Shown here: positions 3,696 through 34,405 of the stretch, piece after piece | How positions within the stretch are numbered: position 1 is the first letter of the stretch | Layout of the letters: each line of letters begins with the position of its first letter | Assembly: GCA_027051195.1 (NCBI GenBank) | Contig: JALUAB010000223.1 | Location: forward strand, 1 to 34,939 | Direction of reading: 5' to 3' | DNA from: Hyphomicrobiales bacterium | GTDB lineage: Bacteria > Pseudomonadota > Alphaproteobacteria > Rhizobiales > Aestuariivirgaceae | Length of the DNA stretch: 34,939 nucleotides | Program-made: the position numbers and the translations under genes | The notes under the pieces: generated by a model | The model's database searches: none | What the model was told of the DNA's origin: nothing | What the model saw: the letters and a program-made list of their open reading frames with translations, nothing else

Positions 3696-4841
3696 CTAAC
3701 GAATGGCCTTCGCCGCCGGCGGTTCCATTTCCTCCAGCAGCGCCCGCAGGCGCGCTTTCGGCAGCGCGAACTCGAATAGCAGCGTGCTTTGCAGGCTGCG
3801 GTTGAAGTTGTCGTCGGAAATGACCAGCAACCGCAGCTCTCCGTCGCGTTCGTAAAGCGCCAGCCCTTCCATGTTGTCAATGGCCTGCAGGGGCCACGAG
3901 GCCTGCATCAGCACCCGTCCTGTCAGCACCACGCCCGGTCTGACGGCATCCGCCCGGAACAGGCGCAGAGCGAAGGCCGGCGGGTTGGTGAGCGACCTGG
4001 AGAACTGCCGCTCCAGCGTGATGAAGCCCGATCCGTCCGCCAGCACGGCGGCATCGGTGATGCGGAAGTCGTCCCGGCTCTCGATGAAGAAGGAAATGCC
4101 CCTCCCGTCCTGCCCATCCTTCCACAGGAAAGCCCGGCGCTGGCCATTCGCCGCGCGGCCCTTTTCGATCACGCCCAGCGCATGCCCTGCCAGCGGCCCG
4201 CTCCAGAACCGCGCGATGGCCTCTATCTCGCCGTTCTCCCGCGCCTGGCGGATGGCCACGGGCAGGAACAGGTAGCGCGCCCGCGCCTGCGCACCCTGCC
4301 GCCCCCAGTCATAGAGCGCCAGCCGCGCCTGGCGCTCGAAGGCCACCAGCAGCGGCCCGTCCACTCCCCGCCCGTCGAACGGCGCCAGCGCCTCGGCATC
4401 ACGCCAGGAACCGGAAAGCGGCCGTCCCTTGCTGCTGAGCATGGGCGCCAGCGTGGTCTGTTCCGCCAGCCCCGCCAGCATGCCCCGTTCATCGTGCACC
4501 AGCCGCGCCCGCCACCACACGCCACGGTCGGAAACCGCCAGCAACCGGGCGCCGTCGGCGCTGACGGCAAGACCGGAAAAACCGCCGAACGAAGGATGCT
4601 CCGCGGAAACAACCAGCCCCCCGCGCCAGGAAAGCTCGCCGAATCGCACGCCACCAATGCGCGACAGCGTGGCCGGCCCGGCCCGCACGGAAAGCGCAAT
4701 CGCCTGTTGCAGCCGTGGCGGCTGGCCGGCCGCCCCGGCCGGCGGTGAGAGCGGCGCCGCCACCGCGAACACGACCGCCAGCGCCGCCAATGCCGCATGG
4801 CGCGCCCACATTCGTCTCTTCCTGTGCTTTTCGCGCGACAT
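3696..4841 (-). CDS. Esterase-like activity of phytase family protein (exported)
   Basis: Signal-peptide-like N-terminus; GGVRFGELSWRGGLVVSAEHPSFGGFSGLAVSADGARLLAVSDRG...DAEALAPFDGRG...NMEGLALYERDGELRLLVISDDNFN. ATGA overlap with the cobT stop. Confidence 0.85.
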   Translation of the reverse strand: MSREKHRKRRMWARHAALAALAVVFAVAAPLSPPAGAAGQPPRLQQAIALSVRAGPATLSRIGGVRFGELSWRGGLVVSAEHPSFGGFSGLAVSADGARLLAVSDRGVWWRARLVHDERGMLAGLAEQTTLAPMLSSKGRPLSGSWRDAEALAPFDGRGVDGPLLVAFERQARLALYDWGRQGAQARARYLFLPVAIRQARENGEIEAIARFWSGPLAGHALGVIEKGRAANGQRRAFLWKDGQDGRGISFFIESRDDFRITDAAVLADGSGFITLERQFSRSLTNPPAFALRLFRADAVRPGVVLTGRVLMQASWPLQAIDNMEGLALYERDGELRLLVISDDNFNRSLQSTLLFEFALPKARLRALLEEMEPPAAKAIR

Positions 4842-6721
4842 CAGGCCACCTGTGGCTGCGCGCCTCGCTGATGCCGCCGGCGACGCTGGCGTGCGGGCAG
4901 GGCGCCTTCCTCGGCGAACAGCTCGGCCAGCTTTTCCATCATCGCCTGCCCCAGCCCTTCCACGTCGTGGATGGTCAGGGCGCGGCGGTAATACCGCGTC
5001 ACGTCATGACCGATGCCGATGGCCACCAGCTCCACCGGCGAGCGCGCCTCTATGTCGGCGATGACCTCCTTCAGATGCCGCTCCAGATAGGCGGTATCGT
5101 TCACCGTCAAGGTCGAATCGTCCACCGGCGCGCCGTCGGAAATGACCATCAGGATGCGCCGCTGCTCCGGCCGCGCCAGCAGCCGCTGATGCGCCCACAG
5201 CAGAGCCTCGCCGTCGATGTTCTCCTTCAGCAGCCCCTCGCGCAGCATCAGCCCGATGCTGCGCCGCCCCCGCCGGTAGGGCACGTCCGCCGGCTTGTAG
5301 ACGATGTGGCGCAGATCGTTCAGCCGCCCCGGATTCGGCGGCCTGTTCTCCGCCAGCCATTTCTTGCGCGCCCGGCCGCCCTTCCACTCGCGCGTGGTGA
5401 AGCCGAGGATCTCCACCTTCACCCCGCAACGTTCCAGTGTGCGCGCCAGAATGTCCGTGCAAATGGCGGCGATGGTGATGGGCCGCCCGCGCATGGAACC
5501 GGAATTGTCGATGAGCAGCGTGACCACCGTGTCGCGAAAGTCCGACTCCTTCTCCTGCTTGAAGGACAGCGGCTGCAATGGATCCACCACCACCCGCGCC
5601 AGCCGCGCCGCGTCCAGCATCCCTTCCTCCAGGTCGAACTCCCACGCCCGGCTCTGCTGCGCCAGCAGCAGCCGCTGCAGGCGGTTGGCCAGCCGCCCGA
5701 CCACTCCCTGCAGAGGCCCCACCTGCTTGTCCAGCTGCATGCGCAGGCGGTTCAGCTCCTCCGGCGTGGCCAGCTCCTCCGCCACCACCACTTCGTCGAA
5801 CTCGGTGGTGAACACCCGGTAGCCTTCCGGCTGCTCGTTGGACATGGGCATCGGTGGCGCGGTCATCAGCCCGTCGGCATCACCGGCATCCTGCGCGTCG
5901 TCCATGCCCTGATCCACGAACTGCGCGTCCACTTCGCCACGATCGGCGGATTCCTGTTCACCTCCGCCGGCTGCACTCACGTCCTCGCTGGCGGCGTCTT
6001 CCATCTCGTTGGGCTCGCCCTCGCCCACGTCGCCGGCCTCTTCGCTCTCCTCGTCCGGGCGCTGGCCCACGTCCTGTTCGTCCGTTTCCGCCGCGCCCGG
6101 GTCGAGAGCATGGATGATGTCGCGCACCATGTCGGCGAAGGCGGCCTGATCGTGCAGCATATCACGCAGGCGTTCCAGCCGCTCGCCGGCGTGTTTCTCG
6201 ATGTGATCGCGCCAGCGCGCCACCAGCGCCTGTGCCGCTGCGGGCACCGGCAATCCGGCCAGCCGCTCGCGCGCCAGCAGGCCCAGCGCCAGCGCCAGCT
6301 CGTCCACATCGGAAGCCAGCGGAGAGACGGTCTTCAGCTGCCGCGTGATGCGCTCCTCCAGCTCCGCCTGCATGTTCGCCGCCATGCCCGGCATGGCCAG
6401 CGCCCCGATGGCCTCGATGCGCGCATCCTCCAGCGCCTCGAACAAAGCGATGCCGTGCAGCGTGCGCGGCAGGCGTTCGTTGTGCAACCGTTCGTCGTGG
6501 TAGGCCAGCCTGAGTGCGAAGCGGTCGGCCACGCCGCGCACGAAGGCGATGTCCTCCGCCTCCGGTTCGTGCGGCAGCTGCGGCAGGCGGGCGCGATCGT
6601 CCGTCAGCATGGCCTTGCGCGGACCATACTGCACCACCATGTCGGCGCGCCCGGCCACGGTCTTCAGACACACCGCGATGGCCCGCTCCAACTGCTCCAG
6701 CCGATCCTCCTGCTCGCTCAT
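4841..6721 (-). CDS. cobT: Cobaltochelatase subunit CobT (VWA domain)
   Basis: 626 aa; acidic middle region, MIDAS-like [48 protein letters not shown]. Confidence 0.95.
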
Positions 6722-6781
6722 GCCAGATTCCGAAATACGGCTTTTCGCACGGATTACACCCGCAACGCGCCTTTACCACCT

Positions 6782-6850
6782 GTCATTCCCGCGAAAGCGG
6801 GAACCCGACCGAATCGGTTGGTTCTGGATCCCCGCCTTCGCGGGGATGAC
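6782..6850. repeat. REP/mosaic-type intergenic palindromic element
   Basis: GTCATTCCCGCgaaaGCGGGAA ... ACCGAATCGGT ... GGATCCCCGCcttcGCGGGGATGAC: outer GTCAT/ATGAC ends, two nested hairpins and a central palindrome. Confidence 0.85.
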
Positions 6851-6875
6851 GCGAACCGAAACGCGCCAGCATGTC

Positions 6876-7859
6876 TCATGCCACGGCGATGGTGGCCGCC
6901 GATTCGGGCAACTCCGTGCCGAAGCAGCGTTGGTAGAATTCCGCCACGATGGGCCGCTCCAGCTCGTCGCACTTGTTGAGGAAGCTCACCTGGAAGGCAA
7001 AGCCCACGTCACCGAAGATTTCCGCGTTCTGCGCCCAGGAAATGACCGTGCGTGGGCTCATCACCGTGGAAAGATCGCCCTGGATGAAGGCGTTGCGCGT
7101 GAGATCCGCCACCCGCACCATGCGCGAGACGACTTCGCGCCCGTGTTCCGTCGTGGCGTAGGACTTCACCTTGGCCAGCACGATGTCCACTTCCTCGTCG
7201 TGCGGCAGGTAGTTCAGGTTCACCACGATGCTCCAGCGGTCCATCTGCCCCTGGTTGATCTGCTGCGTGCCATGATACAATCCCGAGGTATCGCCCAGCC
7301 CGACGGTGTTGGCGGTGGCGAACAGGCGGAACGCCGGATGCGGATGGATCACCCGGTTCTGCTCCAGCAGCGTCAGCTTGCCCTGCACCTCCAGCACCCG
7401 CTGGATGACGAACATCACGTCCGGCCGCCCGGCGTCGTATTCATCGAACACCAGCGCCACGTTGTGTTGCAGCGCCCACGGCAGAATGCCCTCACGGAAC
7501 TCCGTTTCCTGCTTGCCGTCGCGCACCACGATGGCATCGCGGCCGATGAGGTCGATGCGCGAGATGTGGCTGTCGAGATTCACGCGCACGCACGGCCAGT
7601 TGAGCCGCGCCGCCACCTGCTCGATATGGGTGGACTTGCCAGTGCCGTGATAGCCGGTGATCATCACCCGCTTGTTGTGCTTGAAACCGGCGAGAATGGC
7701 CAGCGTCGTTTCCCGGTTGAACAGGTAGTCCTCGTCCAGCTCCGGCACGTATTCGTTCGGCTCGGAAAACGCCGGCACCGTCATGTCCGAATCGATGCCG
7801 AACACCTCGCGCACGGAGACTTCCCTGTCCGGCAGCAGGGCGCTTCTGGGATCGCTCAT
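6876..7859 (-). CDS. cobS: Cobaltochelatase subunit CobS (AAA+ ATPase)
   Basis: [48 protein letters not shown]...[46 protein letters not shown]. Confidence 0.96.
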
Positions 7860-8113
7860 GGTCTTTTCCGGTTGTTCGCGATGCACTTTCCGGGCGCAAC
7901 CACGCCCCTGCAAGACTCCGGCCCGTGCATAGCGTCTTTCATGGTCCGCTTGCAAGCGCCGCGGGTGGCGCGGCCAGCCTCTGCATGGCCCGGATATGGG
8001 CATTTCGGCCCGCCTTTTCGAGGTGCGGACAACCCGCCCCGGCAACTACCGCCTTTTCAGCCGCGGAAGACATGATAAGCTGAACCGGGCCGCAGAAACC
8101 ATCCGGGGAAAGG

Positions 8114-9484
8114 ATGAACGCCAAATCCGTCTTCTGGCACGTTGCCCGAAGGGGCTGGTGGAACGCGCCGGCATTGCTGTTGCTGGCCGTGATGCTGGCG
8201 CTGGCGCCCGCCGCACGGGGACAGGAGGCCGGCATGGCCCGGCCGGAGGTGCGCATCGGCGTGCTGGCCTTTCGTGGAGAAGACCACGCCCGCAGACAGT
8301 GGGAGGGCCTGGTGCGCTGGCTCAACCGCAGCCTTCCGCAGCGCCGGTTTCGGCTGGTTGCCGTCACGCTCGATTCCGCCGGCGGCATGCTGGCGCGCGG
8401 TGATGTGGATTTCCTCCTCACCAACCCCGGCCATTACGTGACGCTGGCGGAAAGATACCCCGTTTCCGTTCTGGCCACGCTGGTGCGCATCACTCCGGAC
8501 GGATACGAGGTGATGCGCTTCGGCAGCGTCATCTTCACCCGCGCCGACGCGGCCGGCATTCGCGGTCTGGCGGATGTGAAGGGACGCCGGGTGGCGGCGG
8601 TCAGCGACAAGGCCTTCGGCGGCTTTCTCGTGGGGTGGCGGGAGTTCCGCGCGCTTGGCATCGACCTGCTGGACGGCGACGTGGAGATGTATTTCACCGG
8701 CTTTCCGCAGGATCGCATCGTGCAGGCGGTGCTCGCCGGCAAGGCGGACGTGGGCATCGTGCGCACCGGCCTGCTGGAAAGCATGGCGCGCGAAAGACGG
8801 CTGGACCTGCGCAAGGTGCGCATCCTGAACCCCGTGCCACATCCGGGCTTTCCCTGGCGTACGTCCAGCCGCCTTTATCCGGAATGGCCGTTCGTCGCGC
8901 GCGATGGTGTGGACAGGATATTGGCGGAACAGGTGCTGAGCGCGCTGCTGGCCTTGCGCGCCGGCTCGCTGCGCACGGCCAATGGCCTGCGCCTTGCCTT
9001 CACCGCGCCTCTTTCCTACCGGGAAGTGAGCGCCCTGGTGCGTGAGTTCCGCCACGCGCGACAGGAGCGTGAAACCGGCAATACGCTGTTGGTGATCCTG
9101 ACCATGCTGGCCGTGGCCGCGGCCGCCTTCGCCGCCGCCTGGGCCTGGCGCAGCCGGCAGACGGAAAGAACGCTGGCCGCCGCCATTCCCGGCAGCCTGT
9201 CGAAAGAGGAACGCAAGCGCTTCACCGATCTCACCCGGCGCGAGCTGCAGGTGCTGGCCTGCCTTTGCGAGGGCCTGTCTTCCAAGGAGATCGCCCAGCG
9301 GCTGGGCATCGCGCCCAAGACGGTGGAATTCCACCGCGCGAATCTGCTGAAGAAGACGGGCTTTTCCTCCACCACGCGCATGGTTTCCGTGGCCGCCAGG
9401 CTGGGCCTGGATACTTGCCCGGGGAAAACCCGGGGAAAAACAGGTGAAGCGCCCGATGGCGCCGGAGCGCCGCCTGCCGCATGA
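8114..9484 (+). CDS. PhnD-like periplasmic sensor domain, transmembrane segment and C-terminal LuxR-type HTH (putative membrane one-component regulator)
   Basis: N-terminal hydrophobic segment; VRIGVLAFRGEDHARRQWEGL...GDVDFLLTNPGHYVTLAERYP (PhnD/TtrS-like); TM TGNTLLVILTMLAVAAAAFAAAWAW (aa ~321-345); HTH LTRRELQVLACLCEGLSSKEIAQRLGIAPKTVEFHRANLLKKTGFSSTTRMV. Confidence 0.88.
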   Translation: MNAKSVFWHVARRGWWNAPALLLLAVMLALAPAARGQEAGMARPEVRIGVLAFRGEDHARRQWEGLVRWLNRSLPQRRFRLVAVTLDSAGGMLARGDVDFLLTNPGHYVTLAERYPVSVLATLVRITPDGYEVMRFGSVIFTRADAAGIRGLADVKGRRVAAVSDKAFGGFLVGWREFRALGIDLLDGDVEMYFTGFPQDRIVQAVLAGKADVGIVRTGLLESMARERRLDLRKVRILNPVPHPGFPWRTSSRLYPEWPFVARDGVDRILAEQVLSALLALRAGSLRTANGLRLAFTAPLSYREVSALVREFRHARQERETGNTLLVILTMLAVAAAAFAAAWAWRSRQTERTLAAAIPGSLSKEERKRFTDLTRRELQVLACLCEGLSSKEIAQRLGIAPKTVEFHRANLLKKTGFSSTTRMVSVAARLGLDTCPGKTRGKTGEAPDGAGAPPAA

Positions 9485-9492
9485 TGCGACTC

Positions 9493-9567
9493 GCTCCGGC
9501 CTGCACCTTCCAACCCGTCAGAACAGACGGATGCGGCCCTTCCCTCTAGGCAGGCGCAGGCCGGAGC
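9493..9567. promoter_or_regulatory. 12-bp perfect inverted repeat enclosing a smaller hairpin, between regulator and DsrE gene
   Basis: GCTCCGGCCTGC (9493-9504) and GCAGGCCGGAGC (9556-9567); inside, CCGTC-agaaca-GACGG (9515-9530). Confidence 0.5.
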
Positions 9568-9646
9568 TTTCCCCGTATCAGGAAAAGGGCCGGCCTCGCA
9601 GAAAAACCGGGGGCACAACCGGTATCTGAAAATGGGAGGAAACAAC

Positions 9647-10138
9647 ATGATCAGGAGGGGGAACGCGACAGCAGGACTGTTCATGGCCTTTGCCCTGGCG
9701 CTGATGGCCGTGGGTCTGTTTGCCGTCACGCCCATGACAAGCCTGGCGCAAGCGAGCGAACGCTATGGTAAGCAGAAGGTCGTATACCACATAAACTACA
9801 ACGGCGGAGAGAAGAACAAGCGTTACCGCGGCGCGATGCGCAACATCCAGAACCACATCAACGCCGTGGGCGCGGACAACATGGACATCAAGGTGGTGCT
9901 GCACGGCAATGGCGTGAACCTGCTGAAGGAGGCGCTGAAGGACGACGGCCTGAAGACACGCGTGACGGCGCTGAAGTCGCAGAACGTCGCCTTTCTGGTG
10001 TGCGCGAACACCCTGCGCGGCCGCAAGATCGACTACGAGAAGGACCTGTTCGACGTGTTCAAGGAGGACATCGTGCCTTCCGGCGTGGCCGAACTGGGCC
10101 GTCTGCAGCTGATGGGATACGCCTACATCAAGCCGTGA
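9647..10138 (+). CDS. Exported DsrE/DsrF-family protein
   Basis: Signal peptide MIRRGNATAGLFMAFALALMAVGLFAVTPMTSLAQA; DsrE-like KVVYHINYNGGEKN...DIKVVLHGNGVNLL...LKSQNVAFLVCANTLRGRKI with a single Cys; start preferred because GGGAGG precedes ATG at 9647. Confidence 0.85.
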   Translation: MIRRGNATAGLFMAFALALMAVGLFAVTPMTSLAQASERYGKQKVVYHINYNGGEKNKRYRGAMRNIQNHINAVGADNMDIKVVLHGNGVNLLKEALKDDGLKTRVTALKSQNVAFLVCANTLRGRKIDYEKDLFDVFKEDIVPSGVAELGRLQLMGYAYIKP

Positions 10139-33484: not shown

Positions 33485-34405
33485 ATGACCATCTATCTCC
33501 CGATTGCCGAGGTTTCGGTCAATCTCTTCCTGCTGCTCGGGCTGGGCGGCATCGTCGGATTTCTGTCAGGCATGTTCGGCGTTGGCGGCGGCTTTCTCAT
33601 GACTCCGCTGCTGATGATGATTGGCATCCCGCCCGCCGTGGCGGTGGCCACGGAAGCCAACCAGATCGTCGCCTCTTCCGCCTCCGGCGCGCTGGCGCAA
33701 TACCGCCGCGGCAACGTGGACGTGAAGATGGGCCTCGTCCTGCTCGTGGGCGGCATCATCGGCTCGGTGCTGGGTGTGCAGATCGTCAAGATCCTGCGCG
33801 AGATCGGGCAGGTGGATCTGGTCATCAAACTCACCTACGTGGCCATGCTCTCCATCATCGGCTCGCTGATGCTCGTCGAGTCGCTGAACGCCCTGCGCAA
33901 GCGCAAGGCCGGCAAGGCCGCTCCCGGCAGAAAACCGGGGTCGCACAACTGGATCCACGGCCTGCCGTTCCGCACCCGTTTCCGCCGCTCCAAGCTCTAT
34001 ATCTCCGTCATCCCGCCCATCCTGGTGGGCGTGCTGGTGGGTCTGCTGGCGGCCATCATGGGCGTGGGCGGCGGCTTCATCATGGTGCCGGCGATGATCT
34101 ACCTGCTGCGCATGCCCACGAACGTGGTGGTCGGCACCTCGCTGTTCCAGATCGGTTTCGTCACCATGGCCACCACCATCCTGCATTCGGTGCAGAACCA
34201 GACGGTGGATATCGTCATGGCCCTCATCCTCATGGCCTCCGCCGTCATCGGCGCCCAGCTGGGCGCGCGCGCCGGCGCAAAGCTGCCCGGCGAACAGTTG
34301 CGCGTTCTGCTGGCGCTGATGGTGCTGGGCATGTGCATCAAGCTCGGCTGGGGCCTGGTGGCCACGCCGGATGAATTCTTCTCCTTCGCGGCGGGAGGTG
34401 AATAA
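33485..34405 (+). CDS. TSUP/TauE/SafE family anion (sulfite) exporter
   Basis: GLGGIVGFLSGMFGVGGGFLMTPLLMMIGIPPAVAVATEANQIVASSASGALAQYRRGNVD and C-terminal copy GLLAAIMGVGGGFIMVPAMIYLLRMPTNVVVGTSLFQI; start MTIYLPIAEVSVN. Confidence 0.94.
   Translation: MTIYLPIAEVSVNLFLLLGLGGIVGFLSGMFGVGGGFLMTPLLMMIGIPPAVAVATEANQIVASSASGALAQYRRGNVDVKMGLVLLVGGIIGSVLGVQIVKILREIGQVDLVIKLTYVAMLSIIGSLMLVESLNALRKRKAGKAAPGRKPGSHNWIHGLPFRTRFRRSKLYISVIPPILVGVLVGLLAAIMGVGGGFIMVPAMIYLLRMPTNVVVGTSLFQIGFVTMATTILHSVQNQTVDIVMALILMASAVIGAQLGARAGAKLPGEQLRVLLALMVLGMCIKLGWGLVATPDEFFSFAAGGE

Follow-up and report, generated by a model that had tools for sequence, protein, structure and literature searches.

The locus described here lies in a 34,939-nucleotide stretch of DNA (the window) from a Hyphomicrobiales bacterium. 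Its plus strand carries a gene (positions 8114-9484) for a 456 amino acid protein that joins a PhnD-type binding domain, a transmembrane (TM) helix and a GerE helix-turn-helix (HTH) domain. A candidate operator palindrome is located in the 3' end of this gene (9418-9435), followed by a conserved stem-loop (9493-9568) and by a gene encoding an exported DsrE-family protein (9647-10138), which is the likely regulated gene.

Architecture and topology of the fused regulator

The initial annotation had described the 8114-9484 ORF as a PhnD/TtrS-like sensor with a TM helix and a complete GerE HTH; its coordinates proved exact and Pfam identified the domains. The sensor half belongs to the Phosphonate-bd family (PF12974; residues 48-283, E = 2.9e-38) and the C-terminal part to GerE (PF00196; residues 373-427, E = 8.8e-18), while among the curated NCBIfam families the sensor half is closest to TtrS (NF040750; residues 46-323, E = 4.7e-50). 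By hydropathy, the protein begins with a hydrophobic segment that may act as an export signal or an anchor (residues 16-34; 8159-8215, plus strand). In the AlphaFold2 model (44 input sequences; mean pLDDT = 90.2), a binding domain of two lobes (residues ~45-300; 8246-9013, plus strand), predicted to be periplasmic, is followed by an unbroken helix (residues 303-357; 9020-9184, plus strand) and by the GerE/FixJ-type HTH (residues 364-429; 9203-9400, plus strand), predicted to be cytoplasmic. The single TM helix (residues 324-344; 9083-9145, plus strand) is enclosed by the continuous helix. The second hydrophobic helix noted before is indeed present, with hydropathy marking residues 324-342, although somewhat displaced from the residues first given (~321-345).

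Neither a histidine kinase domain nor a LuxR autoinducer-binding domain was matched in the regulator by Pfam, and the kinase half of TtrS is absent. A receiver domain likewise gave no Pfam match, and the NCBIfam regulator models align by their HTH part only. Moreover, no response regulator adjoins the fused gene, whose neighbors are cobS/cobT-like genes and dsrE. We therefore discarded four assignments: (i) a complete TtrS/ThsS-type sensor kinase, as the sensor domain is present and the kinase core and adjacent response regulator are not; (ii) a NarL/FixJ response regulator, as the GerE HTH comes without a receiver domain; (iii) a LuxR acyl-homoserine-lactone receptor, as there is no autoinducer-binding domain; and (iv) the binding protein of a PhnD-type ABC transporter, as the domain is fused to a TM helix and an HTH and lies between cobS/cobT-like genes and dsrE. 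With sensor and HTH in one ORF and kinase and receiver absent, the earlier proposal of a membrane one-component regulator that dispenses with phosphorelay is sustained, at least in the broad sense of a sensor and a DNA-binding domain on one polypeptide that is predicted to cross the membrane.

Our searches identified 24 distinct loci with the sensor and GerE in one ORF, and hydropathy places one TM helix between the two domains in all 24 homologues. Over the 15 flanking residues, net charge averages +0.5 before this helix and +2.1 after it, being higher after the helix in 17 of the 24 homologues and lower in two. This positive bias after the TM helix favors a cytoplasmic HTH. The suggestion of a ToxR/CadC-like topology, on the other hand, has to be abandoned. 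In the ToxR family, a winged HTH forms the cytoplasmic N terminus and the periplasmic domain is C-terminal (PMC5936718), whereas here the order is reversed, the periplasmic sensor of PBP fold being N-terminal and the C-terminal HTH being of the FixJ/NarL (LuxR) type and not winged. The likeness is confined to a sensor and a DNA-binding domain in a single bitopic membrane protein and to the absence of phosphorelay.

The dsrE gene, sulfur-linked relatives and the putative ligand

The downstream gene (9647-10138, plus strand) encodes a protein with a DsrE domain (PF02635, E = 3.5e-13). Its start is most likely the ATG at 9647, preceded by GGAGG, rather than position 9632 of the ORF list. The protein has a cysteine that is invariant in 17 aligned homologues, and its AlphaFold2 fold matches MTH1491, ST0148 and YchN (TMt = 0.89 to 1l1s). 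It thus resembles MTH1491, ST0148, YchN and TusBCD in fold and conserved cysteine, and differs from them in being exported and encoded by one gene downstream of a membrane regulator. The co-occurrence of the fused regulator with an exported DsrE gene, expected from the window, was found in 20 of the 24 loci, always downstream and on the same strand (genes in these stretches were predicted by a simple script based on codon usage). In one relative from the window's genus (G006), dnaN stands in place of dsrE, and two further genomes (G477 and G640) are without dsrE within the stretch covered. The outer flanks vary, with cobS/cobT-like genes in the window's genus (4841-7886 in the window, upstream of the regulator), MORN-repeat and other genes in L023 and L026, and different genes again in Sulfitobacter.

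In the branch that includes Thioclava, an SBP_bac_11 gene lies directly 3' of the regulator (L022 9341-10306, L082 8806-9780 and L141 91-1002), where it either substitutes for dsrE or comes before it. It is followed by DsrE in L082, and in L141 the contig ends at this gene. Since SBP_bac_11 adjoins the regulator in this branch, the targets of the regulator may differ. A second subfamily of exported DsrE proteins (HRVAIHVDENDPQVMNMALNN) is encoded between soxB and soxC in a Sulfitobacter genome (G480, L183 5864-6301), and members of it follow the fused regulator in L082 and L142. An exported DsrE between soxB and soxC is found in other Sulfitobacter too (PMC11034169). Close dsrE homologues also exist without the fused regulator, one adjoining a Sulf_transp (YeeE/SoxT-like) gene (G011, L113 1977-2441 and 2731-3837) and one adjoining a cytochrome d1/c gene (G018, L115 2209-3750 and 4096-4557). 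Within the window, a TauE/SafE sulfite-exporter family gene (33485-34405, plus strand; PF01925, E = 1.8e-53) is located 23 kb from the regulator.

The nearest two-component relatives of the fused protein are pairs of a PhnD-type kinase and a FixJ-type regulator. In longer stretches around six such kinases, sox operons or dsrE are adjacent in five: the pair is followed by soxXAYZBCD in G186 (L192), by a palindrome and soxCDYZ in G110 (L147), by a palindrome, dsrE and a soxW-like gene in G059 (L189), and by dsrE in G046 (L191), with an fccB-like gene upstream, and it adjoins a soxZ fragment in G043 (L190). Several of these sox names were read from sequence, SoxY alone being confirmed by profile. 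The sixth pair lies among cobalamin genes (G001, L083), and this, like the cobS/cobT-like genes near the regulator, is probably a coincidence of neighborhood. An exclusive tie between dsrE and the fused form was rejected, given the dsrE or sox genes beside five of the six alphaproteobacterial kinases; beside non-alphaproteobacterial TtrS-like sensors no dsrE was seen. Because the two-component relatives adjoin sox or dsrE, this branch of sensors would belong to the control of thiosulfate oxidation, which is the strongest functional lead, and the pairs of G186, G110, G059, G046 and G043 are candidates for two-component systems that sense thiosulfate and serve the sox operon. The fused form shares with ThsS/ThsR and TtrS/TtrR a PhnD-type periplasmic sensor, a FixJ-type HTH output and a sulfur-compound context, and differs from them in lacking a histidine kinase, a receiver and a separate response regulator; its neighboring target is dsrE, as against the phs and ttr reductases for ThsSR and TtrSR.

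All 24 fused genomes carry soxY. Among 397 Rhodobacteraceae genomes sampled, soxY is present in 275, including all 13 with the fused form, a modest association (hypergeometric P = 0.008, uncorrected for kinship). In the window's genome (G000), a cluster was interpreted as soxXYZABCD, together with a soxW-like gene and one of ArsR type, on the basis of sequence reading and the SoxY profile.

The sulfur oxyanion put forward earlier as a plausible ligand gains from these data, namely the sox and dsrE genes beside the two-component relatives, the match to TtrS, the oxyanion-type folds and the presence of soxY throughout. We infer that thiosulfate is the most likely candidate, otherwise tetrathionate or sulfite, and give thiosulfate itself about an even chance. 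The same architecture and DNA target could also serve a non-sulfur ligand, such as phosphonate or phosphite, an arsenic oxyanion or another small anion. Indeed, the nearest solved folds of the binding domain are PtxB, HtxB and PhnD, which bind phosphite, phosphonate or hypophosphite, and the arsenic-oxyanion proteins ArrX and AioX, all at ~20% identity or less. However, the curated sensor match is TtrS, the two-component relatives adjoin sox, dsrE or fccB-like genes, and no phosphonate or arsenic genes were recognized beside the fused loci, so we regard a ligand of this kind as unlikely. AioX and ArrX provide a parallel of another sort, as PhnD-like binding proteins that serve sensing and not transport, but they are free periplasmic proteins with separate signal transduction, whereas the fused regulator carries its binding and output domains on one chain.

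The junction palindrome and the downstream stem-loop

Comparison of the regulator/dsrE junctions revealed an 18-bp palindrome with the consensus CCYRGGG-N4-CCCYRGG. The copy in the window (CCCGGGGAAAACCCGGGG, 9418-9435) sits in the last codons of the regulator gene, which encode a Pro-Gly-Lys-Thr tail, and in eight fused loci the palindrome runs across the stop codon, always with one and the same offset (CC-TAG-GG). Junctions of the 24 loci were scored with leave-one-out weight matrices (PWM) against dinucleotide shuffles. The window's palindrome reached 22.7 bits (shuffle mean = 2.4), and p was at most 0.007 in 21 of the 24 loci; in 19 of these it reached the lowest attainable value, 1/301. 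The three loci that missed this value (L079, L080 and L020) are all from the window's genus, in which G002, G003 and G006 have a weak palindrome; the best site of L081 lies away from the stop codon. A second, weaker element is present ~33-35 bp downstream of the palindrome in several Rhodobacteraceae. Like palindromes were found in three of the six two-component relatives (G059, p = 0.001; G110, p = 0.003; G186, p = 0.051, weak by itself). Those of G059 and G186 overlap the stop codon of the response regulator at the offset seen in the fused genes, and that of G110 lies ~50 nt past the stop.

A scan of 35 whole genomes, which used the pattern with at most one mismatch and not the full PWM, recovered the junction palindrome in 13 fused genomes. 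In the 2-Mb genome of the window (G000) it is the sole match at this setting, and within the window it is the sole match even at two mismatches or fewer (0.07 expected). The remaining sites at one mismatch or fewer are scattered in or near unrelated genes, and a wider regulon was accordingly rejected. The sox clusters of G000 and G480 contain no strong palindrome, so that sox need not belong to the regulon. Autoregulation was also rejected, there being no strong palindrome upstream of the regulator gene.

We propose that the palindrome is the operator of the regulator's own HTH, to which it would bind directly. ThsR binds an 18-bp element (TATGTGGTTTACCACAAT) said to resemble the FixJ site (PMC5408782), and the TtrR box is GTGG-N4-CCAC (PMC11293645). 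The junction palindrome follows the same plan, an inverted repeat with a 4-bp spacer, with a half-site core of AGGG...CCCT versus GTGG...CCAC in the ThsR and TtrR boxes. As to the sign of regulation, GerE proteins can activate or repress, and while no ligand is bound the regulator might in principle repress dsrE, or its own operon alone, rather than act as an activator. Against this reading, which we consider improbable, the palindrome precedes the dsrE start by ~110-210 bp, which places it upstream of the expected promoter position; the regulator gene itself is not preceded by a strong site; and the boxes from which ThsR and TtrR activate are located upstream (PMC5408782, PMC11293645).

The palindrome could alternatively act as an RNA hairpin that terminates or attenuates the regulator mRNA, as it can pair into a 7-bp stem with a 4-nt loop, often over the stop codon. 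However, pairing at 1-18 and 4-15 survives in no more than 14 of the 24 loci while the sequence of each half is kept, and this loss of RNA pairing at two of the seven positions favors a DNA site. In addition, no U-tract follows the palindrome, its sequence, beyond mere pairing, is conserved across orders, and its spacing is that of the known ThsR and TtrR boxes. We thus consider a role in RNA quite unlikely and retain the operator as the preferred interpretation.

Between the operator and dsrE, the window's sub-clade has a conserved stem-loop (9493-9568, plus strand). Its fold z-score ranges from -4.3 to -5.6 in four genomes (that of the window and, at the same place, G002, G006 and G007), its outer stem covaries, and its internal core of 25 nt (GACGGATGCGGCCCTTCCCTCTAGG) is identical in all four. 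The element is single copy, has no Rfam match, and is kept in G006 although dnaN replaces dsrE there.

Distribution, proposed mechanism and origin

The fused-locus searches covered relatives of the window, GTDB contigs and 397 genomes of the family of Mameliella. Six of the 24 loci come from the window's genus, two from the rest of its family and 16 from the Rhodobacteraceae/Roseobacteraceae group, the fused form being present in 13 of the 397 Rhodobacteraceae genomes; named isolates among the carriers are Thioclava atlantica, Sulfitobacter brevis and Mameliella sediminis. In a class-wide profile survey of 385 genomes, kinases alone passed 1e-60 and no fused form was added, so the architecture appears to be rare outside the window's genus, its family and the Rhodobacteraceae. 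The plasmid collection yielded no fused form at 80% query coverage, the matches listed being kinases or sensor-only proteins. Although the window's genome is a 264-contig draft, it is extremely improbable that sensor and HTH were joined by misassembly or a frameshift error, or that the protein is an orphan receptor with an inactive HTH, as conservation of the same one-ORF architecture in 24 distinct loci, including named isolates, with HTH residues invariant across the fused homologues, refutes artefact and chance.

Taken as a whole, a membrane one-component receptor for a sulfur oxyanion that controls dsrE through the palindrome is a likely explanation of the locus. The periplasmic PhnD/TtrS-type clam would close on the sulfur oxyanion, and the closing motion would travel along the one continuous helix across the membrane and alter the arrangement or dimer state of the FixJ-type HTH in the cytoplasm. 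The HTH dimer would then bind the 18-bp palindrome, located where its own gene ends, and thereby control, probably activate, the gene that follows, dsrE. The product of dsrE may be a periplasmic single-cysteine protein that works alongside Sox thiosulfate oxidation, its cysteine carrying or buffering sulfane sulfur.

Both PhnD-type sensor kinases and one-component regulators of the membrane are already known, and in the open literature that we searched there was no description of the PhnD-TM-GerE joining, its operator or its link to dsrE. The fused regulator is of interest because the sensing of external sulfur by sulfur oxidizers has been called poorly understood (PMC11582611, PMC10451225). 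In Hyphomicrobium denitrificans, where alphaproteobacterial sulfur oxidation is likewise regulated by external sulfur through SoxR and SoxT1B, SoxR is an ArsR-type sulfane-sulfur repressor that relies on a YeeE-like membrane protein (PMC11582611), whereas the fused receptor would read the periplasm directly. It is a compact candidate whose sensor, putative operator and target gene together fit within 2 kb. It occurs in marine genera that can be cultured (Sulfitobacter, Thioclava and Mameliella), and could provide a single-gene part for sulfur-anion biosensors, a role hitherto filled by the two-protein systems ThsSR and TtrSR.

In its sequence, the fused protein looks like a sox/dsrE-linked two-component system with the phosphorelay removed. 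A ThsSR/TtrSR-like system may have lost its kinase and receiver and retained its sensor, operator type and target. The locus would then be a natural example of a phosphorelay being excised while sensor, kind of DNA site and target persist. The more specific proposal, that an alphaproteobacterial thiosulfate two-component system became a one-component receptor that kept the operator type and the dsrE target and acts as a direct periplasmic thiosulfate switch, we put forward tentatively, at somewhat under an even chance. When 76 sensor domains were placed on a quick tree, two changes were required to account for the fused label. The fused forms do not resolve there as one clean branch, and they nest in a small group, mostly of alphaproteobacteria, in which kinases are also found.
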